Below, piece after piece: positions 21,176-37,834 of a stretch of 64,000 nt of DNA; position 1 is the stretch's first letter, and each line of letters begins with the position of its first letter. Under the pieces are notes generated by a model. That model had not been told where the DNA came from, ran no database searches, and worked only from the letters and a program-made list of their open reading frames with translations. The position numbers and the translations under genes were made by a program. Source of the DNA: Xylophilus sp. ASV27 (GTDB taxonomy: Bacteria; Pseudomonadota; Gammaproteobacteria; Burkholderiales; Burkholderiaceae_C); the NCBI RefSeq assembly GCF_016428875.1, contig NZ_JAELTO010000007.1, positions 1 to 64,000 of the forward strand, written 5' to 3'.

Positions 21176-22243
21176 CTACCGATCGACCGGCCTGCCAACC
21201 ACAGCCGAGGCGCTGGCGCGATGCGGCGCGCCGGCGCCCAAACGATCTTTCCAGAGCAGCGCGGGCCGCTCTACAAGATGCCACGACAAGAAGGCCAGCG
21301 CGACCGTCACAGGCACGGTGAAGCAGGCACCTTCCAGCACAGAGAGTCGATTACCCGTGACCCAGATGATGGTCTGCTGCACCGGAAACGCATAGATGTA
21401 GAGGCCATAGGAGATATCGCCAAACCGGCCAGCCCGTCGCAGTAATGGCGTGGCGCAACTACCAAACACCACGGTGGCCAACGGCAGACCCAGGGTCATG
21501 GCCACTTCCTGCCAGCCACCGAACCAGAGCGCAGCGATGGTCAGCGCCGATAGCAGTGCGAACCACCGCCTGTGCGGCAACCAGTGGGAGCGCAGCACAC
21601 ACAGACAAGAACCGGAGAAGAACACCACGCCCATCTGCAGCTTCATGCGCAGCGGGTTGTCATAGCCCATCTTCAAAAGAAAGAAGAACCAGACCGCCGA
21701 CGCCGCGAATGCCGCCACCAGCAGCAGCCCGCTGCGCCGCATGAAGCCCAGAACCCCGACCAGGGCCAGGAGCGCATAGCACTTCACCTCGATCGGAATG
21801 GTCCACAAGGAGCCATTGGCGCTTTGCGGCACGGGGTTGCCGGCAAAAATGCCGGGCAGTTGCGACTCGAACTCCCATAGCCCCAGCAAATTGAGGTACG
21901 TCCAGGTCACGGGCGAGGAAAAGTACTCGGTGCTGCCCAGCGAACTGACCAGCGGGCCGAGGACGAAAACCACCAGCACGGTCGCAACCGCCAGCCCAGG
22001 CCATATCCGGAGAAAGCGTCGAACGGCGAAACGCCAGAGATGCGGATCGCGCACCCAGCTGCCCGCGATCAGATAACCGCTGATGGCAAAGAACACCAGC
22101 ACGCCAAGCCCGCCCCAACTGCTGTTGATGAACAAGGGCTCAGGCCGCCCCGACAAAGCGAACTGGTGGCTGAGCAGCACGCCGGTTGCCGCCGCCAGGC
22201 GCAGAAAGTCGAAGTTGTTGTCCTTGTCGCGGCCAGGCTGCAT
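21176..22243 (-). CDS. Acyltransferase-3 family membrane protein (OafA-like)
   Basis: 355-aa polytopic inner-membrane protein. The start [20 protein letters not shown] with a following SHQFAL is the signature region of acyltransferase-3 proteins (essential His/Arg of the family), and [13 protein letters not shown] and IRRWPG-like [11 protein letters not shown] follow. Family members O-acetylate sugars of O-antigen, capsule or peptidoglycan. The ATG at 22241-22243 is preferred over the longer frame to 22333. It is close to the glycan genes beyond prfC, so surface polysaccharide is the likely substrate. Confidence 0.88.
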
Positions 22244-22470: not shown

Positions 22471-24099
22471 GTGTCCTTCCTCTCCGAAACCCGCCGCCGC
22501 CGCACCTTCGCGATCATTTCCCACCCCGACGCCGGCAAGACCACGCTGACCGAGAAACTGCTGCTGTTCTCCGGCGCGATCCAGATCGCCGGGTCGGTGA
22601 AGGCGCGCAAGGCCAGCCGCCATGCCACCTCCGACTGGATGGAAATCGAGAAGCAGCGCGGCATCTCGGTGGCCTCGTCGGTCATGCAGATGCTGTACCG
22701 CGACCACGTCATCAACCTGCTCGACACGCCCGGCCACAAGGACTTCTCGGAAGACACCTACCGCGTGCTCACCGCCGTCGACTCGGCGCTGATGGTGATC
22801 GACGCGGCCAACGGCGTTGAAGCTCAGACGCGCCGGCTGATCGAGGTCTGCCGCCAGCGCGACACGCCCATCATCACCTTCGTCAACAAGATGGACCGCG
22901 AAGTGCGCGAGCCGCTTGACATCCTCGACGAGGTCGAGCGCGAACTCGGCATGCCCTGCGTGCCCATGACCTGGCCGGTGGGCCAGGGCAAGACTTTCCG
23001 CGGGATCATGAACTTGCGCACGCAGGCGATGACGGTGTTCGAGTCGGGCAGCGAGCGGCTACCGCAGGACTTCGAGACCCTTGCGCTTGGCGAGCGCGAC
23101 ATGCTCGTCAAGCGCTTCGGCGCAGATTTCGAGACCGCCATGGACAGCATGGAGCTGGCCACCGGCGCCTCCCCCACCTGGGACCGCGAAGCCTTCCTGG
23201 CCGGCAAGCAGACGCCCGTGTTCTTCGGCTCCGGCGTGAACAACTTCGGCGTGATGGAAGTGCTCGACGCGCTGGTCGACCTGGCGCCTTCGCCGCAGTC
23301 GCGCACCAGCACCACCCTGGTCAACCGCCAGCCGGTGGTGAAAGAGATCCAGCCCGAGGACAAGGACTTCGCGGGCGTGGTCTTCAAGGTGCAGGCCAAC
23401 ATGGACGCCAACCACCGCGACCGCATCGCCTTCGTGCGCATGGCCTCGGGCAAGTACACGCCGGGCATGAAGCTCAAGGTGCAGCGCACCGCCAAGGAAC
23501 TGCGCCCCACCAGCGTCGTGACCTTCATGAGCCAGCGCCGCGAGGCGGTGGAGGAAGCCTACGCGGGCGACATCGTGGGCTTCACCACGCACGGCGGCGT
23601 GCAGTTGGGCGACACCATCACCGACGGCGCGAGCCTGCAGTTCACCGGCCTGCCCTTCTTCGCGCCCGAGCTGTTCATGACCGTGATCCTGAAGAACCCG
23701 CTGCGCACCAAGCAGTTGCAGCAGGGCCTGGCCCAGCTCGGCGAAGAAGGCGCGATCCAGGTGTTCCGCCCCGAGATCGGCGGGCCGATGCTGCTGGGCG
23801 CCGTCGGCCAGTTGCAGTTCGAAGTGGTGCAGCACCGCCTGAAGGCCGAGTACGACGCCGATGTGCGGCTCGAAGGCTGCCAGTACACCGGAGCGCGCTG
23901 GATCACGGCCGACACCCCGGCCGAGCTGCGCGAGTTCGTCAACGCCTATCCGCAGCGCATGGCCAGGGACGCGGCGGACACGCTGGCCTTCCTGTGCACC
24001 TCGCCGTACGACGTGCGGCTGGCGCAGGAGCGCTTTCCGAAGATCCACTTCCATCCGCTGCGCGAGCATGCGGGCCTGGCGCTGCAGCATGCTGGATGA
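22471..24099 (+). CDS. prfC: Peptide chain release factor 3
   Basis: GTPase that recycles RF1/RF2. 542 aa. G1 SHPDAGKTTLTEKLL, switch I KASRHATSDWMEIEKQRGIS, G3 DTPGHKDFSEDTYR, G4 NKMDRE. Translation is taken from GTG at 22471 (VSFLSETRRRRTFAIIS), which matches the family's start; longer frames extend through the heptanucleotide repeat. No Shine-Dalgarno is evident. A family B repeat begins 3 nt after its stop. Confidence 0.95.
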   Translation: MSFLSETRRRRTFAIISHPDAGKTTLTEKLLLFSGAIQIAGSVKARKASRHATSDWMEIEKQRGISVASSVMQMLYRDHVINLLDTPGHKDFSEDTYRVLTAVDSALMVIDAANGVEAQTRRLIEVCRQRDTPIITFVNKMDREVREPLDILDEVERELGMPCVPMTWPVGQGKTFRGIMNLRTQAMTVFESGSERLPQDFETLALGERDMLVKRFGADFETAMDSMELATGASPTWDREAFLAGKQTPVFFGSGVNNFGVMEVLDALVDLAPSPQSRTSTTLVNRQPVVKEIQPEDKDFAGVVFKVQANMDANHRDRIAFVRMASGKYTPGMKLKVQRTAKELRPTSVVTFMSQRREAVEEAYAGDIVGFTTHGGVQLGDTITDGASLQFTGLPFFAPELFMTVILKNPLRTKQLQQGLAQLGEEGAIQVFRPEIGGPMLLGAVGQLQFEVVQHRLKAEYDADVRLEGCQYTGARWITADTPAELREFVNAYPQRMARDAADTLAFLCTSPYDVRLAQERFPKIHFHPLREHAGLALQHAG

Positions 24100-24101
24100 G
24101 A

Positions 24102-24255
24102 TGAGACCACCCCCAGGCTACGCGCTGCGCGTCTTCGCCTTCCCCCTGCGAGGGGGCACATCCTGCGGACCGGCAAAGCCGGATCCGCGGATGTTTGCGC
24201 ATGGCCTGCTCCGCGGCCTTTCGTTCCTTTGGGTTTCGTTCGCTGCGGGTGTCGC
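24102..24255 (+). repeat. Family B intercistronic GC-rich repeat, copy B1 (long form)
   Basis: Begins GAGACCACCCCCAGGCT just after prfC, then hairpins CCCCCTGCGAGGGGG and ACCGGCAAAGCCGG, and the long-form end CCTTTCGTTCCTTTGGG. Near-identical to units in the 36.1-36.5 kb array. Confidence 0.9.
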
Positions 24256-24276: not shown

Positions 24277-24681
24277 ATGAAACTCCCGCGCCAGTTCCTG
24301 GCCTTCTGCGTGGTCGGCACCATAGGCTTCGTGGTCGACGTGGCCATCCTGTATGCGCTGGCGCCCTGGCTGGGCTGGTTCGCCGGGCGCGTCGTGTCAT
24401 TCCTGGGCGCAGCCACCACCACCTGGGCGTTGAACCGCGCCTTCACCTTCAGTGCCCAGGCCGCCAGCGCCCGCTACAGCGCTTGGCAGCAGTACTGGCG
24501 CTACATGGTGGCCATGCTCGGCGGCGCGCTGGTGAACTACCTTGCCTACACCCTCACCCTGCTGTGGAGCAGCGCCCCGTGGGCTCCCACGCTGGGGGTG
24601 GCGCTGGGCAGCGTGGCCGGCCTGGTGGTGAACTTCGTCAGCGCACGCAAGGTGGCATTCCGCAGCGCACACAAGTCATGA
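24277..24681 (+). CDS. GtrA family membrane protein (putative lipid-linked sugar flippase)
   Basis: 134 aa with four predicted transmembrane helices. FLAFCVVGTIGFVVDVAILY and AATTTWALNRAFTF are typical of GtrA, thought to flip undecaprenyl-phosphate-glucose or related lipids. It ends 7 nt before the GtrB-like glycosyltransferase, the standard GtrA-GtrB pairing. An upstream in-frame ATG at 24229 lies in the family B repeat and is not used. Confidence 0.88.
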   Translation: MKLPRQFLAFCVVGTIGFVVDVAILYALAPWLGWFAGRVVSFLGAATTTWALNRAFTFSAQAASARYSAWQQYWRYMVAMLGGALVNYLAYTLTLLWSSAPWAPTLGVALGSVAGLVVNFVSARKVAFRSAHKS

Positions 24682-24688
24682 TGCGCCC

Positions 24689-25657
24689 ATGCAGCAGAAA
24701 CTGATCTCCATCATCGTTCCCGCCTACAACGAAGAAGCGGTGCTCGACATCTTCCACGAGCGCATCAGCGCAGTGCTGGCCAGCCTGCCGGACTATGCGT
24801 GGGAGATCATCTTCATCAACGACGGCAGCACCGATGCCACGCAGTCGAAGATCGAGGCACTGCAGCGCCAGGATCCGCGCGTCGGCTGCGTCCTGCTGTC
24901 GCGCAACTTCGGCAAGGAGATCGCCATGACGGCCGGCCTCGACCATGCCAAGGGGGATGCCGTGGTCATCATCGACGCCGACCTGCAGGACCCGCCCGAA
25001 CTCATGGCAGACTTCATCCGCGAGTGGAAGAACGGCTACGACGTGGTCTATGGCCGGCGCACCCACCGCGACGGCGAGTCCTGGGCGAAGAAGGCCACGG
25101 CGCGCTATTTCTACCAGGTGATCGGCAAACTCTCCAAGGTGCAGATCCCCGCCAACACCGGCGATTTCCGCCTCATGAGCCGCAGGGCGGTGGATGCACT
25201 GCTCCAGTTGCGCGAGCACCATCGCTTCATGAAAGGGCTGTTCGCCTGGGTCGGCTACCCGTCCATCGCGGTCGAATACCGGCGCCCGCCACGGGCCGCG
25301 GGCGTGTCGAAATTCAACTACTGGAAGCTGTGGAATTTCGCCCTGGAGGGCATCACTTCCTTCACCATCCTGCCGCTGAAGCTCGCCACCTACCTGGGCG
25401 TGTTCATCGCGCTATTTTCCGTCTTGGCCGGTTCTTGGATCATCCTGAAAACACTGCTCTGGGGCGAACGTGTTGCCGGCTACCCGACCCTGATCGTCAC
25501 GATCCTGTTCTTCGGGGGAGTGCAGTTGTTCTTCATCGGCGTCATTGGCGAATACCTGGGCCGCATCTACAACGAAACCAAGGTGCGCCCTCTGTATGTC
25601 GTGCAGGAAGTTTTACCCCCCGGTACCGGAAAAAGCAGGGCGGCCAACACAAGCTGA
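24689..25657 (+). CDS. GtrB-like glycosyltransferase family 2 (polyprenyl-phosphate sugar transferase)
   Basis: 322 aa. Cytosolic GT-A domain with IIVPAYNEEAVL, FINDGSTDAT, IDADLQDPPELM and GDFRLMSRRAV, then two C-terminal transmembrane helices (TYLGVFIALFSVLAGSWII; LIVTILFFGGVQLFFIG). This is the DPM1/GtrB architecture that loads sugar on undecaprenyl phosphate at the inner leaflet. Partner of the upstream GtrA protein. The final acceptor-specific transferase would be one of the GT-C-like neighbours. Confidence 0.9.
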   Translation: MQQKLISIIVPAYNEEAVLDIFHERISAVLASLPDYAWEIIFINDGSTDATQSKIEALQRQDPRVGCVLLSRNFGKEIAMTAGLDHAKGDAVVIIDADLQDPPELMADFIREWKNGYDVVYGRRTHRDGESWAKKATARYFYQVIGKLSKVQIPANTGDFRLMSRRAVDALLQLREHHRFMKGLFAWVGYPSIAVEYRRPPRAAGVSKFNYWKLWNFALEGITSFTILPLKLATYLGVFIALFSVLAGSWIILKTLLWGERVAGYPTLIVTILFFGGVQLFFIGVIGEYLGRIYNETKVRPLYVVQEVLPPGTGKSRAANTS

Positions 25658-25758
25658 TGCCGCTGGCCTATTGATCGCTGGATGCAGCGCCCGGCGTCCA
25701 GGCGATTTTCGGTGCATTTATCCCAGTTTTCCCATGTAAATCAGCAAAATAAGAAATC

Positions 25759-27297
25759 ATGCCTCATTCCGCTGCCTCGCCCATGTCGAAATTCAATGGC
25801 AGCAATTTGATAATTATCGCCATCATATTGCTTGCCGCAGCCTTGCGCTTCTACCATATAGATGCGTTCAGCTTATGGGAGGATGAGCTTTTCTCCGTCG
25901 CGACGGCAACCCAGTCCGGGCCGTGGTACGGGCCGTTCGAGGCCGGAAAAAGCATGCAGAAGCTGCAGTTGACGGACAACTTCTGGACCTGGAAGTTCTC
26001 CGACCCGCATCCGCCGCTCTTTGAAATGCTGCTGGTCGTCTGGATCAAGCTGTTTGGAACCTCGGATTTCGCGCTTCGCAGCCTCACTGCCAGCCTGGGC
26101 GTTGGAACCCTGCTGTCGGTGTTTGCGCTGCCACGCACCATCACGGCACCGGGCCGGATCGTCTACGTCGCGCTGCTGGCAGCCTCCGCACCGTTGCTGA
26201 TCTACAGCCAGGATGTGCGCAACTATTCATTGGGGGCATTCCTTTCGGCGTGGATGTTCGCATTTCTGCTGCGCCAGATGGATGAAGACGAAGCGGGCCT
26301 GCGAGCCGGCAGGCCCCATTTCCTGCTGCTCGCCGCAGGCGGCTTGCTCGCATTGACGCATTATTACGGCCTGATCATGACGCTCAGTTTTGCCGCCATC
26401 ATGACGCTCAGGGTGCGCAGCATCAGAGCTTTTTGCAGGGCGTCGGCCTCATGGCTCCTGGCCTTGGTGCCGATCGGCATCTACATCGCACTCGGCTGGG
26501 CAGGCATTGCCACCAAGATGAATGCAGCGCCGCCCGAGGCTCTCTCACTGGCGATGACCTTCAAGCGCAACACCATATCGCTGCTGCACAACATCTATCC
26601 CCATGTCAATACGAAGGGGTTTTGGATTTCCATGCTGGTCGTGCTGGCAACGCTGCTGATCTACAAGCGCATGCGCAGCGAGCAGCACATCCTCGCGCCA
26701 TCGGCAGGCGCAATCGCGGGCATCCTGACCTTGTTCTTCCTGGTGCTGATCCTGGCGACGCGGCGTGCGGAATTCTTCTCGACGCGCTACGTGATATTCA
26801 TGTTCCCCGGCATCTTGCTGATGCTATCCATCTTTACCCTGGTAAAGGGGTGGCCGAGGGCGGCAAGCCTGCTGCTTACGGCATTTCTGATACCCATGGG
26901 AATCTGGGCCTGGCAACTGTCGCCCAAACCCCAGAATGGAGGGGACTGGCGTGGGGCAGCGGAGTTGGTTGCCCGCCTGTACGGCCCGAACGACATCGTC
27001 ATCATTCCGCTGATCGACCCGACGATGCGCTCGCATTTCGTGCATTACCTGCGTAAGAAACTCCCCCAAGAACAGCTTGACACTCGCGTTCTGAGCATCA
27101 CCAATCCAGATCTCATGCCTGCGCGGCTGCAAGCTCTGGAACACCGACCTGCGAGGATCATTTTTTTCACCCATGCTTCCTTTCAATACGAAGGAAACGC
27201 CATGATGGATTGGTTGCAGAAGAACTACTCATGCACCGCTGAATCGTGGCAGAACGTACAGGCTCTGCGCGTCGCCGTCGTATCGTGCCCGCCGTGA
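25759..27297 (+). CDS. GT39-like polytopic glycosyltransferase (GT-C fold)
   Basis: 512 aa, about ten hydrophobic segments. Near the N-terminus FSLWEDELFS carries the acidic pair of GT-C enzymes in the first periplasmic loop, and SDPHPPLFEMLLVVW matches the next conserved loop of the PMT/ArnT family. A soluble C-terminal region follows from about residue 390. It probably uses a polyprenyl-phosphate sugar made by the GtrB-like enzyme. The ATG at 25759 is weakly supported; 25783 is an alternative. Base composition is visibly lower in G+C than the flanking core genes. Confidence 0.8.
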   Translation: MPHSAASPMSKFNGSNLIIIAIILLAAALRFYHIDAFSLWEDELFSVATATQSGPWYGPFEAGKSMQKLQLTDNFWTWKFSDPHPPLFEMLLVVWIKLFGTSDFALRSLTASLGVGTLLSVFALPRTITAPGRIVYVALLAASAPLLIYSQDVRNYSLGAFLSAWMFAFLLRQMDEDEAGLRAGRPHFLLLAAGGLLALTHYYGLIMTLSFAAIMTLRVRSIRAFCRASASWLLALVPIGIYIALGWAGIATKMNAAPPEALSLAMTFKRNTISLLHNIYPHVNTKGFWISMLVVLATLLIYKRMRSEQHILAPSAGAIAGILTLFFLVLILATRRAEFFSTRYVIFMFPGILLMLSIFTLVKGWPRAASLLLTAFLIPMGIWAWQLSPKPQNGGDWRGAAELVARLYGPNDIVIIPLIDPTMRSHFVHYLRKKLPQEQLDTRVLSITNPDLMPARLQALEHRPARIIFFTHASFQYEGNAMMDWLQKNYSCTAESWQNVQALRVAVVSCPP

Positions 27298-27360
27298 AGC
27301 GGATGCTTGCGTGCAGGGCTACTCCATCAAGAACCATCTGTTGAATGAGCAGGATTGATC

Positions 27361-29187
27361 GTGAAGAAAATAAAGTTCATCTCCCTGGCAATGGCCACCG
27401 CCTTTCCATTGCTGGGTTCGGCACAAATGCCCTTGCCTGAGCGAAGCACTTTCTATATAGCGCCCGTGATTGAAGGTCTCGCCATCTGCCTGTCCGCCCA
27501 ACGCTCGGAGCAGGTACGCAAGGGAATCGCGCCCAACTCCCATTGCGGAAAATACAAGTTCGATTCCCCGGCCATGCTCACCCATCTTCTGAACGATTTC
27601 GAAGCGGGCGGAGCGGCCGGCAAGGTGCAGGTGGGTTATACAGCGACCATTCCGTTGCTCGGGCTGTACGAGAAGAAGAATGGCAAGTGGGTGATCAACG
27701 CTGCCAAGGTGGACGACAACCTGTCCTTGATTGCCAAAGTGAATCGCCCGGTCGTCGTCTATCTCGCAGCCAACCATTTCGATACGCAGGGCCCGCTGAG
27801 CGAGGAACTAGCCAGGGACAAGCGCAACCTGCTGCTGCTGGCCAACGGCGCGCCCCCCGACACGTCCTATTTTGGTTATGCCGTCACTCCGTTCACGCTG
27901 CTGACGGACGAGACGATTCCGGTCAACCACTACCGCTTCGAGGCACTGCGCTATGTCGCGCAGAAAGTGGCCAGACTCCCGGCTGCGGTGCAGAATCGCA
28001 TCATCGCCGTCACGCTGGCCGGGGAGTTGCACCAGATGTTCAATGATTTTGAAAACGGCATGGGCGTTTTCGAGAAAGCGAGCGTCACCGACTACAGCCC
28101 TGCGTCAGCGGCGGAGTTCAAATCCTGGCTGTCCAAGAAGTACCGCACGGTGGAAGCCTTCAACAAGACCACGGGCTTCACGTTCGCCGATTTCGGTGCT
28201 ATCCCTCTGCCCGGAAAGAACATCCGCACGGACTCACTGACATCGTTCGCCGAGCACTACGACGGCTTCGCGGACGGCGTGCTGCCGGTATCTGGCTGGC
28301 TCTGGACAGCCGAAGGCCAAGTGGAAAAACTGGAGCTTTATGTAGATGGCCAGCGCGTGGCGGACGTGCCCCGCCGGCTGAACCGCCTCGATGTGTACCG
28401 CGCGGTGGAAGAGATCAAGACTCCGAACGTCGGCTTCCGCTACGACTATGCCTTTGACAAACTGCCGGTGGGCCGCCATGTGGGCCAGGTAGTGGCCCAT
28501 GCGGCCGGCAAACGCTACGAAGTCGCGCAATTCGACTTCAACGTCATGGCACGTGACCAGTCCCGACTGCCCGCGAGACCGGTCGCAACGCTGAAGTCGC
28601 TCGAAAAACTCGACAAGCTCAAAGGCGCCAGAGCCTGGCTCGATATTCCGCGCCAGCAGCAGGACGTCTACTTCAACCCGCTGGCACGCGACTGGGACGA
28701 ATTTCGCGCGACACAGGTTAACGCACTACTGAACAAGTTCTACACGATCGCCAGGCAAGCCGGCATTCCGGCGTCGCTGCTGTATTCGCACCAGATCGTG
28801 CCCCAGGTCAATTCCACCTGGAACGCACAGCTGTTTGCGGTGGACACGACGTTTGCCGGTGACACGTCCTGGCATGATGGCATGAACATGTACGGTGGCG
28901 CGGCCAACAGTGACTGGGTGCGCAATTTCATTGCCTCCCGCAAGATCCAGGACTACGGCGTGCCGGAATTCAACCCGCAGCAATGGAAGCAGCCCGGAGT
29001 ACACCTGGATGCGATGGTGTCCCAATACAAGAATGGTGCACGCTTCATCAGTCCCTATTTCATCTCGGTCACGTCTGACCAGGATAGCCCGCGCAGCGCA
29101 GTTACCAATATGGAAATCCGGCCCGACAACCCGGCGGAGGGATCGGCACAGTTCTACCGCGCGATCCGGGAGCTTTCTGCGCAATGA
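27361..29187 (+). CDS. Secreted glycoside-hydrolase-like protein (GH-A clan / GH42-like) with internal beta domain
   Basis: 608 aa from a GTG at 27361 (signal peptide KKIKFISLAMATAFPLLGSA). Residues about 218-270 read LAGELHQMFNDFE, then DYSPASAAEFKSWLSKKYRT, VEAFNKTTGFTFADF, the pattern around the acid/base Glu of GH42-like beta-galactosidases; Glu222 is the candidate. A beta-sandwich domain (SGWLWTAEGQVEKLELYVDG, about 305-397) interrupts the barrel before the last part. Specificity is unknown and the nucleophile is not identified. It sits among membrane glycosyltransferases, so trimming or remodelling of the exported glycan is plausible. Could also be an inactive sugar-binding barrel. Confidence 0.65.
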   Translation: MKKIKFISLAMATAFPLLGSAQMPLPERSTFYIAPVIEGLAICLSAQRSEQVRKGIAPNSHCGKYKFDSPAMLTHLLNDFEAGGAAGKVQVGYTATIPLLGLYEKKNGKWVINAAKVDDNLSLIAKVNRPVVVYLAANHFDTQGPLSEELARDKRNLLLLANGAPPDTSYFGYAVTPFTLLTDETIPVNHYRFEALRYVAQKVARLPAAVQNRIIAVTLAGELHQMFNDFENGMGVFEKASVTDYSPASAAEFKSWLSKKYRTVEAFNKTTGFTFADFGAIPLPGKNIRTDSLTSFAEHYDGFADGVLPVSGWLWTAEGQVEKLELYVDGQRVADVPRRLNRLDVYRAVEEIKTPNVGFRYDYAFDKLPVGRHVGQVVAHAAGKRYEVAQFDFNVMARDQSRLPARPVATLKSLEKLDKLKGARAWLDIPRQQQDVYFNPLARDWDEFRATQVNALLNKFYTIARQAGIPASLLYSHQIVPQVNSTWNAQLFAVDTTFAGDTSWHDGMNMYGGAANSDWVRNFIASRKIQDYGVPEFNPQQWKQPGVHLDAMVSQYKNGARFISPYFISVTSDQDSPRSAVTNMEIRPDNPAEGSAQFYRAIRELSAQ

Positions 29188-29202
29188 TGCACGGTGGCCC
29201 TA

Positions 29203-30567
29203 TCAGGGTTTTTTTAAAATATGCCAGAGCGCGACTATCATGCCCAGTGTGAATATGCCATTCACAATGCGTTTTAGTCTTTCTCCTTCTACCTGCATGA
29301 ACACCAGCGTGGCCAGCAGCAGGACCAGCATGTTCTGGAAGAAGAATATCCGTGCACCCGACGCATAGAGCGTCGGCGAAAGTCCCATGATTGCCGCCGA
29401 CAGGATAGCAGCGATGAAGATGAGAACCGCCGCACCTGGGGCGATGAACCTGGATCGGATTGATGCATTGGAAATGCTGAAACCGACACAGCATACACCC
29501 AACATCACCAAGAAGAAGTGGCCATAGAAAACCGAGTTCACGGCGGCCTGGAAATAATCTCCCACGCCATACACATGAAAACCTTCGGGCGTCTTCTGGA
29601 ACGACCATATCTCAGCGATCGTCTGCACCCAGCTTTGTGAGGATGCCCGCAGCAGCCTGGGCACCGCCTGCAAAAGATAGAGCAGAACGGGCACCAGTGC
29701 AATCAGGCGCTTGGCAGGACTCCTGGTCCGCTGGAAAACCAAAATGCATAATAGTACAACAAAAGCAATGGAAATGATGTTTTCGCTTCTGAAAAAATGG
29801 CTGAACGCCAGATCAAATCCTGCAAAAATCCGTTCATCTAGATGCCATTCGGAATACTCAGGAAACCAGTAACTCGTGACCACGCTGTAGCGCGCCGAAG
29901 TGCCGGGTGCGGCAACGACGCCAATCAGTGCCAGCAGCGCAACGAGCATCAAAACCGCATGCCTCCAGCGAAGTTGCCCAGTACGCAGCAACCCTATGCC
30001 AGCCAGAAGCTGAAACCCCAACAACAGCAATCCAGCCTGCTCCTGCGAGGCCCCATACAGCGCTGCAGGAAGGGCCACGATGAAAAGGCGCGGCAATAAT
30101 TCAGGCCGTAGAAAAGGCAGCAAAGCCAATGACGCCGCGGCCCAGGGCCACAGATAATTGAACGAGCCCGTCATCCACCAGACAGCCTCGCTCATGACCC
30201 CGCGCGGAAGCAGGAAAAATCCTTGGAACAGGAAAATGAGTCCCAGGACTCGTTGATCGGCTTGCGTGACGTGGGCCATGAGCCCCAATGACAGCAGCAG
30301 AATGAACAGCATGAGGCTGCGCCACAACCATTCATGCGGGATGACGAGCAGGGTCAAGGCATCGACTGCCGCGCGCCCGGACCAGATGGTATAGCGCTCG
30401 GTCAGATAATTCACCAAAGACCGGTCCTGCAGTGCCTTGGCATACATGACATCATCCCCGGCCGATCTGAGTCCCTTGAAGGACAAAACCATTAGCAGCA
30501 GCATCGCCAGCAGCAGGAAACACAGATGAAATACCTGTCTTGGTTTATTCAGAATCAACATGCTCAT
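29203..30567 (-). CDS. Polytopic membrane protein, DUF6056-like (possible GT-C transferase)
   Basis: 454 aa, about 11 hydrophobic segments. An early loop reads SAGDDVMYAKAL, RYTIWSGRAAVDAL, PHEWLWRSLML: an acidic pair and WSGR as in DUF6056 and GtrII-like glucosyltransferase proteins. The function is inferred, not shown. Its start overlaps the stop of the upstream beta-domain gene (ATGA), so the two are coupled. It is convergent with the secreted glycosidase-like gene with only 15 nt between. Confidence 0.65.
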   Translation of the reverse strand: MSMLILNKPRQVFHLCFLLLAMLLLMVLSFKGLRSAGDDVMYAKALQDRSLVNYLTERYTIWSGRAAVDALTLLVIPHEWLWRSLMLFILLLSLGLMAHVTQADQRVLGLIFLFQGFFLLPRGVMSEAVWWMTGSFNYLWPWAAASLALLPFLRPELLPRLFIVALPAALYGASQEQAGLLLLGFQLLAGIGLLRTGQLRWRHAVLMLVALLALIGVVAAPGTSARYSVVTSYWFPEYSEWHLDERIFAGFDLAFSHFFRSENIISIAFVVLLCILVFQRTRSPAKRLIALVPVLLYLLQAVPRLLRASSQSWVQTIAEIWSFQKTPEGFHVYGVGDYFQAAVNSVFYGHFFLVMLGVCCVGFSISNASIRSRFIAPGAAVLIFIAAILSAAIMGLSPTLYASGARIFFFQNMLVLLLATLVFMQVEGERLKRIVNGIFTLGMIVALWHILKKP

Positions 30568-31121
30568 ACATCCACTGGCAGGCTGCGACCGGTGTCGACG
30601 AGCACACGTTTTCCATTCCTCTCAACGGAAATCATGATGCGGGCGCCATCCTCGACCGGTATGTATTTTTTCCGGATGACGGCGCGAAACCCCATGAAAT
30701 TGAGCCCTTCGGCAATGCCCATTTTTGCGCTGATGTCCTTTCGCAGCACCATCCGGGTTCGAATCTCTATGGCCTTGTTCTGATGGAGCGGAACCAGCAC
30801 GATGCGCGGCTTGAGCCAGAAACCATTGCGGGGTTCGTCGGTGATCCAGCCCGCGATTTCATACCTGCCGTCCTTCAAGCGAATTTCGTCGAAGGACCAT
30901 TTTGGCGCCTCTGCCGCGGCCACGTAATTCCCCGCCACCTCCGTGCGCGTGTAATTGCGCTTCTTGTACTGGTAGAAAAATACACTGATGACGGCAGGCA
31001 CGAGAAGGCAGAATGCGATCTGACACGCAGACGAATGCGCGGCTCTCCGCAAGAACCGCCCCATGTCCCGCAAAGCCACAGAACCATTATCAAGAAATAG
31101 CTTCATTTTATTGGGGTGCAT
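30564..31121 (-). CDS. Single-pass membrane protein with C-terminal beta domain
   Basis: 185 aa. One transmembrane helix (IAFCLLVPAVISVFFYQY, about residues 35-52), then a soluble beta domain (GRYEIAGWITDEPRNGFWLK, LNFMGFRAVIRKKYIPVEDG). The AGW start and strand pattern resemble the inserted domain of the glycosidase-like protein at 27361-29187. The ATG at 31121 is used because it has a weak GGGAAAG upstream; 31106 is an alternative. Coupled to the DUF6056-like gene. No established family recognised. About 290 nt upstream, up to the divergent gene at 31414, hold no gene I can support. Confidence 0.65.
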   Translation of the reverse strand: MHPNKMKLFLDNGSVALRDMGRFLRRAAHSSACQIAFCLLVPAVISVFFYQYKKRNYTRTEVAGNYVAAAEAPKWSFDEIRLKDGRYEIAGWITDEPRNGFWLKPRIVLVPLHQNKAIEIRTRMVLRKDISAKMGIAEGLNFMGFRAVIRKKYIPVEDGARIMISVERNGKRVLVDTGRSLPVDV

Positions 31122-31413
31122 TGTCGCTTTCCCGGCGATTGTATAGACTCGCGGCCTTACCCATGGCCCATGGCTCTCGACGCAATGCGAGGGTCGAATG
31201 CGCAGATTCAAGCCGAACAAACCAGAAAATCATGATGGTCGCCCTGAAAAGGCCAGCCCGAACCCCTGGTTCACGGCGCAACGCGAGATCACCGCAGCCT
31301 ACGCTGCGCCCTAAATCCATCTCACGCCACGGCAGTGCCGCATCGTGCGGCGTGCAGTTCCGCAGCGCGCGCCACTTCTTGGTGCGCGGGGGCTGGCCGG
31401 CGGGCAACGCGCC

Positions 31414-32775
31414 ATGAGCGGGGCCGCTGCGCAGGCCGAGCGCTCCGGGCGCGCGTTCCTCGTGGCGCTGGCCGCGCTGTGCCTGGCCTACGGCGGCTGG
31501 CTGCTCGCGTTCTGGCCCGGCGTGCTGGGGCCCGACAGCTATGCGATCCTGCTGGAGTTGCAGACGCAAGGCGGCTTCCAGTCCGGCAAGCCGAGCTTCT
31601 GGTACTACTTCGTCCATCTTTTCTACGGCAGCACCCGGCGGGTGGAAGCACCCATCGCCTTCCAGTTGCTGTTCGCGGCGCTGGTGTTCGCGCGCATGCT
31701 GTCCTGGTGCTGGCGGCAAGGGTTCTGGAAGATCACGCTGTTTTGTGCCGTCTTCATCTGCTTTGCGCCGCACATCATGTTTTTCACGGGCACGCTGTAC
31801 CCCGACGCCTTGTTCTCCATCGCGGCGGCGGGGCTGCTGTTCGAACTGTGGCTGGCGGCCAGGGCCGGGCGGCTGGCGCCGTTCCAGCTCGGGATGGTCT
31901 TCATCACCCTGCCGTTCGCGCTGTTCTGCCGGCAGAACGGCTTCGTCTTTCTTGCGTCGCTGGCCCTGGCGTCGCTGGCCCTGCGCTGGCCGGACCGGCT
32001 CAGGCTGTGGGGCATGGCGGTGTTCTGGAGCGCGCTGGTGCTGCTGGGCGGGCGGCTGCATGCGACCGAATCGCACAGCGTGCTGTTTCCCTTGGCGGCG
32101 TTCGAAACGGTCAACTTCCTGCAGCCGCGCCCGATGAACCTGCCGCGCGCCGAGCCCCGGGTGTCCGAGGCGACGATCGAGGCGCTGACCCGGCGGCACG
32201 ACCTGCAGAACATCATCCGCCACTATGACCGCGACTACTGGGACCCGCTGGTCTACCAGCCGGACGGGCCGGAGCTGATGCGGATTCCGCCCGAGGACAA
32301 GGCGGTCATCGTGCGCGAATTCTTCCGCTACAACCTCTGGCGCAACCTGCCCGCCTTCCTGGGCAGCCGGGTCAACATCTTCATGACCTCGCTGCTGGCC
32401 CAGGGCGGCATCCTGCCGTTCGATTACACGCAGCAGGTGCTGGCCCAGGTGCAGACGAAGTCGCAGATGCGCAGGTTCCACCTGGACCGGCTCGAAGCCG
32501 TGCTGCTCAAGCTGCACAAGGCCAGCCTGGCCTGCCGCTGGCTGCTGTGGACGCCGGCGCTCGGCATCCTGCTGCTGCTCTGGGGGTTGCCGGGCGCGCT
32601 CAGGCAAAGAAGGGTGGCGGAACTGCTCGTGCTGCTGCCTCTGCTGGCCCAACTGGGCGGCATCTTCGTTTTTTCCATCGCCGGCGAGTACCGCTACCTG
32701 CTGCCCTTTGCCGTCGCCCCCGTCCTTCTGCTGCCCATGCTGCAGAGCCGCCGCGGCGCGGCCCCCTCTTCGTGA
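31414..32775 (+). CDS. Polytopic membrane protein, putative GT-C-type glycosyltransferase
   Basis: 453 aa with about ten hydrophobic segments. The first periplasmic loop GVLGPDSYAILLELQTQGGF has the Asp placement of GT-C enzymes. A soluble region at about residues 240-330 (HDLQNIIRHYDRDYWDPLVY) precedes the last helices. Not assigned to a named family. The stop overlaps the GTG start of the downstream HAD phosphatase (GTGA), so the two are coupled. Higher G+C than the genes just upstream. Confidence 0.7.
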   Translation: MSGAAAQAERSGRAFLVALAALCLAYGGWLLAFWPGVLGPDSYAILLELQTQGGFQSGKPSFWYYFVHLFYGSTRRVEAPIAFQLLFAALVFARMLSWCWRQGFWKITLFCAVFICFAPHIMFFTGTLYPDALFSIAAAGLLFELWLAARAGRLAPFQLGMVFITLPFALFCRQNGFVFLASLALASLALRWPDRLRLWGMAVFWSALVLLGGRLHATESHSVLFPLAAFETVNFLQPRPMNLPRAEPRVSEATIEALTRRHDLQNIIRHYDRDYWDPLVYQPDGPELMRIPPEDKAVIVREFFRYNLWRNLPAFLGSRVNIFMTSLLAQGGILPFDYTQQVLAQVQTKSQMRRFHLDRLEAVLLKLHKASLACRWLLWTPALGILLLLWGLPGALRQRRVAELLVLLPLLAQLGGIFVFSIAGEYRYLLPFAVAPVLLLPMLQSRRGAAPSS

Positions 32776-33653
32776 ACCCACCTGCCCCTGGCCACCGCCT
32801 GCAGCCCCTGTCCACCTGGCCCGAGGCCGAACGCCGCGGCATCGTCGGCGTGCTGACCGACATCGACGACACCCTGACCACCGAGGGCGCGATCACGCCC
32901 GATGCGCTGGCGGCCCTGGGCGCCCTCCAGGCGGCGGGCCTGCACGTGGTGCCGATCACCGGCCGGCCGGTGGGCTGGAGCGCGACCTTTGCGGCGACCT
33001 GGCCGGTCGATGCCGTGGTGGCGGAAAACGGCGCCGTGGCGCTACTGCCCACGCATGAAAAAGGCCTGAAGCCCAGGTGCGATCTGGGCTCTTTGCTATC
33101 AAAGATATACCAGCAGGATTCGGCCACGCGCAGCGCCAACTTCGCCCGCATGCAGGCCGTGGCCCGGCGCGTGCTGCGCGAGGTTCCCGGCACCGCGCTG
33201 GCCACCGATTCGCCCGGCCGCGAGACCGACATCGCCATCGACCACAGCGAGTTCGCGCGGTTGCCGCCCGAGACCATCGCGCGCGTGGTGGCGCTGCTGC
33301 GCAGCGAGGGCATGAACGCCACGGTGAGCAGCATCCACATCAATGGCTGGTACGGCGAGCATGACAAGCTCGCCGGTGCGCGCTGGATCGTGCGCACGCT
33401 CTGGCAGCGCGACCTGGACGCCGAGATCGGGCGCTGGGTCTACGTCGGCGATTCGAGCAACGACCAGACGATGTTCGAGCGCTTTCCGCACAGTGTGGGC
33501 GTGGCCAACATCGCGCGCTTCCTGCCCATGCTCGAACACCTGCCGCGCTACCTGAGCCGCGGCGCGCGCGGCGCCGGCTTTGCCGAGGTGGCCGCTGCGC
33601 TGCTGCAGGCGCGCGGCGACGGCCCCGGCCTCAGCCGCAGTGCGCCCGGGTGA
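32772..33653 (+). CDS. HAD-IIB family hydrolase (sugar-phosphatase-like)
   Basis: 293 aa from GTG at 32772. Motif I VLTDIDDTLTTEG, motif II PITGRP, motif IV VYVGDSSNDQTMFE. Resembles mannosyl-3-phosphoglycerate or sucrose/trehalose phosphatases; the substrate is uncertain. Residues about 96-114 (EKGLKPRCDLGSLLSKIY) are encoded by a family A repeat between the cap and the core, keeping the frame. Overlaps the membrane-protein stop by 4 nt at its start and the convergent inhibitor gene by 23 nt at its end. Confidence 0.83.
   Translation: MNPPAPGHRLQPLSTWPEAERRGIVGVLTDIDDTLTTEGAITPDALAALGALQAAGLHVVPITGRPVGWSATFAATWPVDAVVAENGAVALLPTHEKGLKPRCDLGSLLSKIYQQDSATRSANFARMQAVARRVLREVPGTALATDSPGRETDIAIDHSEFARLPPETIARVVALLRSEGMNATVSSIHINGWYGEHDKLAGARWIVRTLWQRDLDAEIGRWVYVGDSSNDQTMFERFPHSVGVANIARFLPMLEHLPRYLSRGARGAGFAEVAAALLQARGDGPGLSRSAPG
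33057..33111 (-). repeat. Family A dispersed hairpin repeat, copy A4 (inside HAD phosphatase gene)
   Basis: Minus strand: TATCTTTGATAGC, then GAGCCCAG-loop-CTGGGCTT, then AGGCCTTTTTC. In frame within a plus-strand gene, antisense to its reading direction. Confidence 0.82.
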
Positions 33654-35328: not shown

Positions 35329-36069
35329 CTACCTCAGAACATCCACCTGCGCGTGCAAGGCCTCGGCCCAGGCGCGCCGGTCGCGGCCTTCGGCGTGTTG
35401 CGGCTCGCCCAGCCGCACCATGGCGACGATCGGCTCCGAGGTCAGCGTGCGCCAGATCGAGGCCAGCAGCGTGTCATCGCCCACGTAGGAGGCCGCCTGC
35501 GAACGGCGACCCGTGGCCGCGTCGATGAAGCGGATGCCCAGCGGCTGCACCGGCGCCCCGGCCGAGATCGCGGCCTGCAGCAGGTTGCCGTGAAAGGGCA
35601 GCAGCCGCTCGCCGTCGCCCGTGGTGCCTTCGGGGAACACGGCCAGCACGTCGCCCGCGCGCAGGCGCGCGGCCATGTGATGCACCACGCGCAGGGCATC
35701 GCGGCGGGATTCGCGCGCGATGAACAGCGTGCCCGAGCCCGCGGCCACGGCGCCGATCAGCGGCCAGCGCCGGACCTCCGCCTTGGACACGAAGCGGCAG
35801 TTTCGCGTGGCCTGCATCACCAGGATGTCGAGCCAGGACAGATGGTTGGCCACCACCAGCAGCGGCCCGCCAGCCTGGCGCGGGCCCTCGACCCGCAGCG
35901 TGACGTTGAAGATGCCGAGCATGTGGCGCGCCCACTGCTCGATGCAGGCCTCGCGCTCGGCCGGCGAGAAGCCCGGGAAGCGCCAGCGCAGCAGCCACAG
36001 GCCGCGCAGCCCGTGCCCGACGGCGCGCACGATGCGCAGGCCCGCGCCGGCCTGGCGCAGCAGGCTCAT
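35329..36069 (-). CDS. plsC: 1-acyl-sn-glycerol-3-phosphate acyltransferase
   Basis: Makes phosphatidic acid. 246 aa. The catalytic NHLSWLD (HX4D), substrate-binding FPEGTTGDG and GAPVQPLGIRF blocks are intact, with a hydrophobic N-terminal segment. It follows pyrC' after a triple family B repeat array. ATG at 36067-36069. Confidence 0.92.
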   Translation of the reverse strand: MSLLRQAGAGLRIVRAVGHGLRGLWLLRWRFPGFSPAEREACIEQWARHMLGIFNVTLRVEGPRQAGGPLLVVANHLSWLDILVMQATRNCRFVSKAEVRRWPLIGAVAAGSGTLFIARESRRDALRVVHHMAARLRAGDVLAVFPEGTTGDGERLLPFHGNLLQAAISAGAPVQPLGIRFIDAATGRRSQAASYVGDDTLLASIWRTLTSEPIVAMVRLGEPQHAEGRDRRAWAEALHAQVDVLR

Positions 36070-36085
36070 GGACGAGACGCCCCCG

Positions 36086-36532
36086 GCAGCGCATGAAACC
36101 CAAAGGCACGAAAGCCCGCGCAGCAGCCCATGCGCAGACATCCGCGGAACCGGCTCCGCCGGGCCGCAGGATGTGCCCCCTTGAGGGGAAGCGCGCAGCC
36201 TGGGGGTGGTCCCATTCCAGCAACACCCGCAGCGAACGAAACCCAAAGGAACGAAAGGCCGCGGAGCAGGCCATGCGCAAACATCCGCGGAACCGGCTGC
36301 GCCGGTCCGCAGGATGTGCCCCCTCGCAGGGGGAAGGCGAAGACGCGAAGCGCGCAGCCTGGGGGTGGTCCCATTCCAGCGCCACCCGCAGCGAACGAAA
36401 CCCAAAGGAACGAAAGGCCGCGGAGCAGGCCATGCGCAAACATCCGCGGATCCGGCTTTGCCGGTCCGCAGGATGTGCCCCCTCGCAGGGGGAAGGCGAA
36501 GACGCGCAGCGCGCAGCCTGGGGGTGGTCTCA
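36086..36532 (-). repeat. Family B repeat, triple tandem array (B2)
   Basis: Three head-to-tail units of about 160 bp (36371-36532, 36211-36370, 36086-36210, the last shorter), very similar to each other and to B1. Each has GACCACCCCCAGG, the CCCCC/GGGGG hairpin, the ACCGGC/GCCGGT hairpin and the CGTTCCTTTGGGTTT end. The array starts at the pyrC' stop codon and fills the gap to plsC. It stays open in several frames, giving false ORFs. Confidence 0.93.
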
Positions 36533-37834
36533 TTTCTGTTCGAAAGCCACCGTGCCCCCCACCAGTGTCCAGCGCACCCGCGCGGGCAGCTCGTAGCCGG
36601 AGAACGGCGTGTGCTTGCCCTGGCTGCGCAGCGCCTCGGGCGTGACAGTCCAGCGCGCGGCGGGGTCGAAGATGCACAGGTCGGCCACGCCGCCCGGCAC
36701 CAGGCGGCCCAGGCTGGCCTCCAGCGTGCCGAGCGCGCCGCCCAGCACCGCGGCGGGCGCCTGGGTCACGGTCGCCAAGGCGCGCCGCAGGCCGGCGCCG
36801 CCGGGCGCGGATGCCTCGCCCCATTTCACGGCCAGGCTCAGCAGCAGCTCCAGCCCGGTGGCGCCGGCCTCGGCCTCGGCGAAGGGCAGCACCTTGGCGT
36901 CCTCGTCCACCGGCGTGTGGTCCGACACCAGGGCGTCGATGGTGCCGTCGGCCAGCGCGGCGCGGATCGCGTCGCGGTCGCGCTGCTGGCGCAGCGGCGG
37001 GTTCAGGCGCGCGCGGCTGTCGAAGAAGCCGATGTCGGCATCGGTCAGGTGCAGCGAGTTGATGCTGACGTCGCAGCTCAGCCCGAGCCCCTCGGCCTTG
37101 GCCTGGCGCACCAGCGCGATGCCGGCGGCGCTGCTGATGCGGCACAGGTGCACCCGCGCGCCGGTGGCCTTCTGCAGTTCGAAGATGGTGTGCAGCGCGA
37201 TGGTCTCGGCCGCCACCGGCACGCCCGACAGGCCCAGGCGCGTGGCCAGCGGGCCGCTGGCGGCCACGCCCTTGCCCAGGTGCAGCTCCTGCGGCCGCAG
37301 CCAGACGGTGTAGCCGTAGGTGGCAGCGTACTGCAGCGCGCGCTGCAGCACCTGGGTGCTCTGCAGCGCCACTTCGGCCTGGCTGAAGCCGACGCAGCCG
37401 GCCTCGGTCAGCTCGGCCATCTCGGTCAGCACCTCTCCGGCCAGGCCGCGCGTGAGCGCGCCCAGCGGGAACAGCCGCGCCTGGTGCAGCTTCTCGGCGC
37501 GGAACTTGAGCATCTCCACCAGGCCGGGCTCGTCCAGCACCGGGTCGGTGTCGGGCGGGCAGACCAGGCTGGTGACGCCGCCGGCAGCGGCCGCGGCCAT
37601 TTCGGATTCGAGCATGCGTTCGTGCTCGTGGCCGGGTTCGCGCAGGCGCGCGGCCAGGTCCACCAGGCCGGGCATGACGATGCAGCCGGTGGCGTCGATG
37701 ACGCGGTTGGGCGTGAAGTCGGGCGCTATGTTTTCAATAGCTAGAAGCCGGCCAGCGGCGATGGCTACGTCGGCTTTTTTATCAAAACCGGTGGCCGGAT
37801 CGATGACGCGGCCGTTGATGATGGAGATCTTCAT
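36530..37834 (-). CDS. pyrC': Dihydroorotase-like subunit PyrC' (non-catalytic)
   Basis: 434 aa amidohydrolase fold. The metal-binding HxH of true dihydroorotases is lost: after MPGLVDL the sequence is AARLREPGHEH. The position of the later Asp is SDHTPVDEDA. This is the pseudo-dihydroorotase type that forms the structural partner of aspartate transcarbamoylase in Pseudomonas (PyrB-PyrC'). Genomic order pyrR-pyrB-pyrC' supports it; a catalytic pyrC should exist elsewhere. Part of its N-terminal region (residues about 18-37) is encoded by a family A-like repeat, copy A5. Confidence 0.9.
   Translation of the reverse strand: MKISIINGRVIDPATGFDKKADVAIAAGRLLAIENIAPDFTPNRVIDATGCIVMPGLVDLAARLREPGHEHERMLESEMAAAAAGGVTSLVCPPDTDPVLDEPGLVEMLKFRAEKLHQARLFPLGALTRGLAGEVLTEMAELTEAGCVGFSQAEVALQSTQVLQRALQYAATYGYTVWLRPQELHLGKGVAASGPLATRLGLSGVPVAAETIALHTIFELQKATGARVHLCRISSAAGIALVRQAKAEGLGLSCDVSINSLHLTDADIGFFDSRARLNPPLRQQRDRDAIRAALADGTIDALVSDHTPVDEDAKVLPFAEAEAGATGLELLLSLAVKWGEASAPGGAGLRRALATVTQAPAAVLGGALGTLEASLGRLVPGGVADLCIFDPAARWTVTPEALRSQGKHTPFSGYELPARVRWTLVGGTVAFEQK
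37725..37783 (+). repeat. Family A-like repeat, divergent copy A5 (inside pyrC')
   Basis: GCTATGTTTTCAATAGC hairpin, then AAGCCGGCC...GGCTACGTCGGCTT and a TTTTTT tract followed by ATC. The inner stem is AGCCGNC-type rather than GCCCAGG. It matches the family layout but less strictly; pyrC' length is not obviously increased. Rare codons (AAA, CTA, ATA) cluster here. Confidence 0.55.

Follow-up and report, generated by a model that had tools for sequence, protein, structure and literature searches.

The seven genes that separate prfC from a HAD-IIB phosphatase gene in a genome of the GTDB genus of Xylophilus (Comamonadaceae) are, on balance, probably a Gtr-type (three-component) periplasmic glycosylation cassette, which occupies a fixed slot for exchanged glycan-decoration modules and carries a clan GH-A enzyme as partner. 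They were analyzed within a window of 64,000 nucleotides, to which all positions refer. The preliminary description had proposed a complete surface-glycan modification system that forms a unit. Transfer, flipping and glycosidase genes do co-occur at one fixed slot, where they are linked in many Comamonadaceae with acyltransferases recurring nearby, but the seven genes do not form a conserved unit. All seven are present as described, each an open frame with no internal stops.

Both borders of the slot, prfC (peptide chain release factor 3; 22498-24099, + strand) on the left and the HAD-IIB phosphatase gene (32772-33653, +) on the right, lie outside the cassette. Identity of prfC among the mapped relatives is 83-92%, and the HAD gene was found in 7 of 7 genus genomes (E limit 1e-3) and, at an E limit of 1e-25, in 100 of 150 family genomes sampled from a larger group. 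A dispersed repeat of about 158 nt (24098-24255, +), with 59 matches in its own genome, separates prfC from gtrA, and inverted, near-identical copies are present at 36220-36536. The lower G+C first noticed in the middle of the region is evident in 1-kb windows: values are 0.53-0.60 between 25.0 and about 31.5 kb, whereas both flanks, taken within 15-42 kb, range over 0.63-0.75.

The first gene, gtrA (24277-24681, +), encodes a small putative undecaprenyl-phosphate-sugar flippase of the GtrA type (PF04138, 64.2 bits, cut-off 26.1), and shares 61-63% identity with the gtrA genes that two congeners carry at this slot. It is followed by gtrB (24689-25657, +), a GtrB-type GT2 gene whose product is a putative undecaprenyl-phosphate-sugar synthase (PF00535, 122.6 bits; PHROG 841 "GtrB-like", 393 bits) with 71-73% identity to the slot gtrB of the two congeners. 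Across prfC, where an OafA-like acyltransferase had been reported, the gene between ahcY and prfC (21176-22243, -) indeed encodes an OafA-type enzyme (PF01757, Acyl_transf_3, 75.4 bits; PHROG "O-acetyltransferase", 121.8 bits). It is a possible partner of the cassette; acyltransferases recur in relatives either inside the slot or across prfC from it.

Three GT-C-like proteins had been claimed. For GTC3 (31414-32775, +) the claim is borne out by structure prediction: the AF2 model (pLDDT 78, pTM 0.82) has a GT-C fold, so the cassette has one GT-C-fold transferase at the least. GT-C enzymes, or chains of GT-C-containing complexes, fill all of the best 42 VIA rows (Z 10.0-18.8; Pmt, ALG, ArnT, OST/translocon, Emb, Aft, DPY19, GPI transamidase), and the next row, WaaL, falls to Z 5.1. 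The GTC3 profile found no match among PDB sequences, though the model matches GT-C structures, and DUF6020 scores 16.6 bits, under its gathering score of 28.3. GTC1 and GTC2 are assigned by weak or family-level profile matches. GTC1 (25759-27297, +) is a polytopic PMT_2/ArnT-like protein scoring below the PMT_2 gathering score (20.8 versus 26.1 bits) and below the cut-off of TIGR03663 (E 5e-7); its best match among PDB sequences is an unrelated protein (E 0.16). GTC2 (29203-30567, -) is a polytopic DUF6056 membrane protein (61.6 bits, gathering score 27) and a putative GT-C.

The nature of these transferases bears on the target of the cassette. It is unlikely, though conceivable, that the cassette modifies proteins, such as pilin or others that are exported, or a different surface polymer, with GTC1 and its PMT-like relatives acting as protein O-glycosyltransferases. 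The GT-C proteins of the slot match PMT and PMT_2, some below cut-off, and protein mannosyltransferases are the best structural neighbors of GTC3; but the same fold is found in GT-C enzymes with LPS as their substrate, among them ArnT (Z 14.8 to GTC3). An ArnT-kind modification of lipid A or core, instead of O-polysaccharide side chains, is very improbable. ArnT does rank first for the GTC3 model in Foldseek (E 0.058), the SMR-type flippase of relatives presumably resembles ArnE/F, and the ArnC model matches GtrB with 179 bits. That score, however, is far under the ArnC cut-off of 529 while the PHROG score of GtrB is far higher, other arn-like genes are absent from the profile matches of the cassette genes, and a GH-A partner is not known to belong to the Arn pathway.

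The partner gene of GTC2, "beta" (about 30564-31121, -), had been described as encoding a beta-domain membrane protein. A crude hydropathy scan reveals a single hydrophobic window, near the N-terminus, followed by a soluble remainder; the beta-domain label found no backing. No Pfam or NCBIfam family matches at E<=1, and profile searches built from three sequences, which say little, gave a best E of 1.4 against the PDB and probabilities below 1% against both the GH insert domain and DUF7654. No plasmid match was obtained at E 0.01.

The glycosidase gene (GH; 27355-29187, +) encodes a clan GH-A enzyme, as judged from its AF2 model (pLDDT 88.5). The Glyco_hydro_42 match (PF02449) covers only 48 residues and is barely over its cut-off (22.0 versus 21 bits), and no solved structure is close by sequence (best E 0.021). 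The model has a (beta/alpha)8 barrel (Foldseek E 3.8e-6; VIA Z 23.1, rmsd 3.4, 314 residues), with a beta-rich insert at about residues 305-400 within it. Rows named GH35 align with Z of about 23 and rows named GH42 with about 21; these and other families tie within about 2 Z. Two candidate catalytic glutamates, Glu224 and Glu538, are invariant in 36 of 36 GH sequences. The catalytic pair of the clan is expected to follow strands 4 and 7; by the model alone, Glu224 is positioned shortly after the strand 216-220 and Glu538 within the strand 534-540. The protein had been called secreted, and is probably exported: its first residues were read as an export signal, but a strong hydrophobic (signal) stretch is lacking in a crude hydropathy scan, which counts against the reading favored here.

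A GH paralog (33%) in the same genome adjoins a GT4-family gene, which we take to be WecA-like, on a contig with Wzt/Wzm-like and multiple glycosyltransferase genes. Of 78 GH loci in the named genomes, chosen for carrying GH and thus no guide to its frequency, 23 adjoin prfC and/or the HAD gene, and in 24 GH is situated between rmlA-like and pilB/pilC-type genes. The pilB/pilC neighbors favor a protein target; the rmlA-like neighbors and the O-polysaccharide-like cluster beside the paralog argue for a glycan, and these surroundings are the reason for linking the enzyme to O-polysaccharide. It is rather improbable that the GH-A enzyme is instead a periplasmic transglycosidase that shifts Gtr-delivered sugars along or between surface-polymer chains, with its paralog, next to rml-like genes or within the O-polysaccharide cluster, acting likewise on the backbone. 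If true, the cassette would encode a four-part "deliver and rearrange" pathway of a kind that is not known among Gtr systems.

The slot was surveyed in 67 HAD-anchored stretches of 104 genomes with a HAD match. The 60 further loci came mostly from the top of the HAD match list, with few skipped, and the counts are biased to close relatives; open reading frames were called by a codon-usage script, by which small or odd genes may be missed. In 51 of the 67 stretches prfC is located upstream of the HAD gene; it is absent from the stretch examined in L073 and L102. The two genes are at most 400 bp apart, with no cassette, in 29 of the 51 loci, so the HAD gene was rejected as a member of the system. 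Inserts of 0.9-2.2 kb at eight loci contain no recognized glycan gene and, where looked at, encode peptidases, alpha/beta hydrolases and a nuclease (as found by a Pfam check of four proteins, whose cluster three loci share, and by visual inspection of L068). L068 and L105 also carry small additional frames.

The remaining 14 loci have inserts above 2.5 kb, 13 of which contain glycan genes; L067, whose prfC is closest to that of the window, has an ABC transporter in its large insert instead. This locus and the eight smaller inserts show that glycan genes are not the only occupants of the slot. Glycan inserts comprise GT-C-type transferases, a small flippase (GtrA or SMR/EamA) and a GtrB-type GT2, often with a clan GH-A enzyme and/or an acyltransferase; one (L060) has acyltransferases only. 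Flippase and GT2 occur together in 11 of 13, and GH is intact in seven, a remnant in one more and missing from five. GH and Gtr genes are therefore separable, since GH also stands alone between prfC and the next gene at three named loci (L116, L139 and L146). At least two GT-C-like genes are present in 10 of 33 cassettes, and multiple GT-C genes are thus not rare here. The flippase type is paired with the GT2 type: an SMR/EamA flippase replaces GtrA in 19 of 27 flippase-bearing cassettes, and among these related, non-independent genomes SMR cassettes have GT2 type b (19 of 19), while in GtrA cassettes that have a GT2 at all it is gtrB or type c (6 of 6; in one, both kinds of GT2 are present). 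The congener locus L051 has GtrA in the slot and no GT2 there. On a prfC tree of 65 rows (without the long-branched L077, and with L067 scored as an ABC-transporter insert), presence or absence of a glycan insert requires at least 12 changes, seven forced by well-supported branches, so the insert has been gained or lost many times.

The full seven-gene set was found in no second genome among those examined. Six of the seven genes are present in two congeners, scattered over three places. Independent occurrence with no linkage, named in the preliminary description as its refutation, was not observed across relatives. The GTC1 homologs (61%) there are beside prfC, on its opposite side, and the GTC2 (40%) and beta (26%) homologs directly adjoin each other away from the slot (L048 and L049), in one congener beside a purH-like gene. 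GTC1, GTC2 and beta were found in the same 3 of 150 family genomes, at E limits of 1e-30, 1e-15 and 1e-3, respectively, so that weaker homologs of GTC1 and GTC2 go uncounted because of the stricter limits; GTC3 belongs to a wider set. This restricted distribution and the dispersal in the congeners led us to reject the seven genes as one conserved unit. As relatives keep other versions or none at the slot, the set seems to be an exchangeable module that follows a known scheme, not a fixed new system.

A looser explanation is possible, although we consider it the less probable one: the slot may simply be tolerant, with GTC2/beta and GTC3 having landed by an older gtrA-gtrB-GH core, so that the genes form no single pathway and some are perhaps idle. 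The same families at three separate places in the congeners, the strand switches within the window cassette and the non-glycan inserts at the slot are all consistent with such a mosaic. GTC2 and beta are read from the opposite strand, and GTC3 opens a separate stretch; this arrangement also offers no sign of co-regulation and counts against the preferred reading. Conversely, all seven frames of the window are open, glycan genes are present in 13 of the 14 large inserts, and cassettes with two or more GT-C-like genes recur. A PHROG scan of the seven cassette proteins and of 10 from the flanks matched glycan-type families, one unknown family (GTC2) and housekeeping-like proteins, with no structural or integrase family among them. 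Recent phage delivery of GTC1 or GTC2 is unsupported, as neither is matched in the phage collection at E 1e-5 and the 17 scanned proteins include no phage structural or integrase family. The phrog_26225 profile does match GTC2 (E 6.4e-22), and an old phage link of this gene is therefore possible. A single GH locus occurs in viral_contigs.

In the Gtr-type cassette proposed here, GtrB would load a sugar onto undecaprenyl phosphate, GtrA would flip the loaded lipid, and, once in the periplasm, the sugar would be attached by GTC1, GTC2 and GTC3 at differing positions or acceptors of a surface glycan, O-polysaccharide being the likeliest. The GH-A enzyme, if exported, would trim or remodel sugars placed by the GT-C enzymes, and the adjoining OafA-type enzyme may acylate the same polymer; the function would be LPS modification and trimming. 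Their linkage suggests that the three Gtr components may work together as a single system on a common acceptor. Neither the GtrB match nor the GT-C matches point to a particular sugar, which also counts against this reading. If it is right, the slot constitutes a defined, easily located site of surface-glycan variation in Comamonadaceae (Acidovorax, Paracidovorax, Simplicispira, Diaphorobacter, Xylophilus and kin), comparable to the LPS-diversifying gtr loci of Salmonella, and a glycosidase is added as a frequent Gtr partner. As locating prfC and HAD is enough to read it from a genome, the slot could be of use in predicting surface types and phage receptors. Its natural variants, with GH by itself, Gtr genes lacking GH, or anything from one to three GT-C genes, allow the individual roles to be told apart. 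Among the matches listed from the open-licence literature, where absence is weak evidence, no paper deals with a prfC slot or with GH-containing Gtr cassettes in Comamonadaceae, and none that names DUF6056, DUF6020 or DUF7657 was found.

The GH-A model resembles GH35 and GH42 beta-galactosidases and the Ignavibacterium beta-1,2-glucosyltransferase, with the (beta/alpha)8 fold over most of its length (Z about 21-23); its two conserved glutamates may occupy positions of the kind expected for the clan. It differs from solved clan GH-A enzymes in its low alignment identity (8-16%) and the beta-rich domain inserted within the barrel. The Gtr mechanism is taken from the excerpts of PMC11127046 used here. 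As described in these and in excerpts of PMC3688519, gtrABC or gtrA-gtrB-gtr(type) operons glucosylate the O-antigen in Salmonella and Shigella, and share with the cassette a GtrA-type flippase, a GtrB-type GT2 and a variable GT-C enzyme; in Salmonella, which has four such loci in that account, differing families are likewise exchanged at fixed chromosomal places. In contrast to the operons so described, the cassette has a GH-A gene and up to three GT-C genes, resides in the prfC-HAD slot among 17 scanned proteins free of phage structural or integrase families, and is represented in most flippase-bearing relatives (the 19 of 27 above) by SMR/EamA instead of GtrA versions. The pentofuranose system of Citrobacter youngae (GT136) also combines a lipid-linked donor, a flippase and a periplasmic GT-C, but its donor is made by a phosphoribosyltransferase, its flippase is of the MATE type, and a GH partner goes unmentioned in the excerpts of PMC11127046, which do mention Xanthomonas systems of greater complexity that have several GT-Cs. 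The gsf cluster of Actinoplanes missouriensis similarly pairs a GtrA flippase with several glycosyltransferases, for which modification of an extracellular polysaccharide was proposed; it is actinobacterial, and the portions of PMC13390465 consulted report no GH inside it, placing a GH26 gene in the separate wps-1 cluster. The best reading is thus that the three-component Gtr scheme is known, and that the GH-A partner and the presence of up to three GT-C enzymes are what differ here.

The cassette at 24277-32775 fills the interval, here termed the slot, between prfC on its left border and a gene encoding a HAD-IIB phosphatase (HAD). Its leftmost four genes, gtrA, gtrB and those for a PMT_2-like membrane protein (GTC1) and a glycosidase-like protein (GH, 27355-29187), lie in that order on the forward strand. 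They are followed on the opposite strand by the genes for GTC2 (a DUF6056 membrane protein) and for a small protein that has a single hydrophobic stretch ("beta"), and, on the forward strand and last before HAD, by that for a DUF6020-like membrane protein (GTC3). An OafA-type acyltransferase gene is located on the far side of prfC. Profile matches and the G+C profile (0.53-0.60 at approximately 25.0-31.5 kb versus 0.63-0.75 outside, within 15-42 kb) bear out the genes and the composition dip claimed in the preliminary description, while its labeling of the small protein as a "beta-domain" protein is unproved. From a reading of its first residues GH may be secreted; a crude hydropathy scan of the protein identified no strong hydrophobic stretch. 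A dispersed repeat of approximately 158 nt, with 59 matches in the strain's own genome, has one copy between prfC and gtrA (24098-24255) and tandem copies in reverse orientation at 36040-36536. Recombination at the slot could take place through this repeat.

HAD was found in all seven genomes of the genus and in 100/150 of the family, together 104 genomes, and the stretch upstream of it was mapped in 67 of them, counting the window. Of these stretches 51 contain prfC, and in 29 of the 51 loci the two genes are spaced by 400 bp or less. Gaps of 0.9-2.2 kb in eight loci contain no recognized glycan gene, and hold S41 peptidases, α/β hydrolases, a calpain-like protein and a YhcG-type nuclease. 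The calpain-like protein and the nuclease, of the PDDEXK type, are single non-glycan slot genes in L052 and L072 (L numbers denote loci from other genomes). Gaps above 2.5 kb occur in 14 loci, 13 of which contain glycan genes, with acyltransferases as the sole such genes in L060; the one large insert free of glycan genes (L067) holds an ABC transporter instead. Of 14 inserts measured (a set that includes L052, with its 2.2-kb gap, and omits L067), 13 have a G+C content below that of the flanking DNA, nine of them by at least 5 points. Mapped onto a 65-row prfC tree, the glycan insert requires a minimum of 12 gain or loss events, seven of them forced by supported branches, and the relative closest to the window in prfC (97%) lacks such an insert. 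The stop of GTC3 shares 4 bases (32772-32775) with the start of HAD, and prfC overlaps HAD in the same manner in L057, L070, and L091, all with empty slots, suggesting that translational coupling to HAD may be retained when the slot is filled.

The 13 glycan inserts combine a flippase with a GT2 glycosyltransferase in 11 cases; GH is intact in seven, a remnant in one more and absent from five, and acyltransferases are present in some. Among 78 loci in named genomes found via GH, 23 adjoin prfC and/or HAD, in Acidovorax, Paracidovorax, Simplicispira, Diaphorobacter, Alicycliphilus, Xylophilus, and others. A table of 33 cassettes, from which L120, L143, and L147 were excluded as the same records as already mapped loci, displays a regular pairing: all 19 cassettes with an SMR/EamA-type flippase carry GT2 type b, and of the eight with GtrA six have a GT2 gene, in each case gtrB or type c (6/6), counts that provide no test statistic because related genomes are not independent. 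One GtrA cassette (L033) has type b in addition, and none of the 33 contains both flippase types. At least two GT-C-like genes are present in 10/33 cassettes, two of these 10 through DUF7657 proteins (putative GT-C), and the three of the window are the maximum. DUF7657-type proteins recur in the slot, as identified by Pfam in L035, L081, and L119 and by similarity in L115 and L138. In the slot of L117 (5497-8520) an acyltransferase and a GT-C-like protein appear within a single 1007-residue reading frame, possibly a fusion of acylation and transfer.

GTC1, GTC2, and beta (E limits 1e-30, 1e-15, and 1e-3) were each found in 3/150 family genomes, the identical three, all of the window's genus; GTC2 is present in 3/7 genus genomes. 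In the two other genomes the slot is occupied by gtrB, GH, and gtrA, GTC1 lies across prfC from it, and GTC2 and beta are at a separate place, adjoining a purH-like gene in the congener L048. Other genera have GTC3 relatives in the slot or beside prfC, and the slot of the congener L051 contains two. The window cassette is thus a gathering in one place of genes that relatives keep apart.

The AF2 model of GTC3 (eight sequences, pLDDT 78) gave no Foldseek match below E 0.05, with ArnT ranked first. On realignment, the best 42 rows were GT-C enzymes or chains of GT-C-holding complexes (Z 10.0-18.8), followed by WaaL (Z 5.1); the upper rows carry the weight, since Z below 13 can reflect a shared arrangement in helical proteins. 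The GH model (36 sequences, pLDDT 88.5) best matched an Ignavibacterium β-1,2-glucosyltransferase in Foldseek (E 3.8e-6), and β-galactosidases in VIA-align, with Z of approximately 23 for rows named GH35 and 21 for rows named GH42; rows less than 1 Z apart are ties, and GH35 and GH42 are candidates for the numbered family. Together these matches place the modeled GH in clan GH-A. Glu224 and Glu538 are invariant in 21/21 and 36/36 sequences (overlapping sets), and the model contains an inserted β-rich domain at about residues 305-400. In 24 of the 78 GH loci (e.g., L151, L160, L170) the gene is a diverged GH paralog, flanked on one side by rmlA-like and on the other by pilB/pilC-type genes. In the strain's own genome a paralog adjoins a GT4-family (WecA-like) gene, with Wzt/Wzm-like genes also present; the names rmlA, pilB/C, WecA, and Wzm/Wzt are interpretations of Pfam matches.

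In the established Gtr scheme (PMC11127046, PMC3688519), an Und-P-sugar is made by GtrB, flipped by GtrA and placed by a GT-C enzyme. By analogy, the cassette most likely acts likewise: GtrB would produce the Und-P-sugar, GtrA would flip it, and the GT-C enzymes would place the sugar on an acceptor. This acceptor is probably O-polysaccharide, given the GH family members beside rmlA-like genes and the paralog by WecA-like and Wzt/Wzm-like genes. The linkage of GH with GT-C genes suggests that GH would trim the sugars these enzymes add. Since the solved structure closest to GH in Foldseek is that of a transferase, the enzyme could possibly remodel through sugar transfer.

Salmonella is known to exchange gtr families at fixed chromosomal places (PMC3688519), and the presence of more than one GT-C gene has been noted in Xanthomonas (PMC11127046). 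As far as the literature found shows, the new elements are the prfC/HAD slot, a GH-A enzyme as a frequent partner, and the regular pairing of flippase and GT2.
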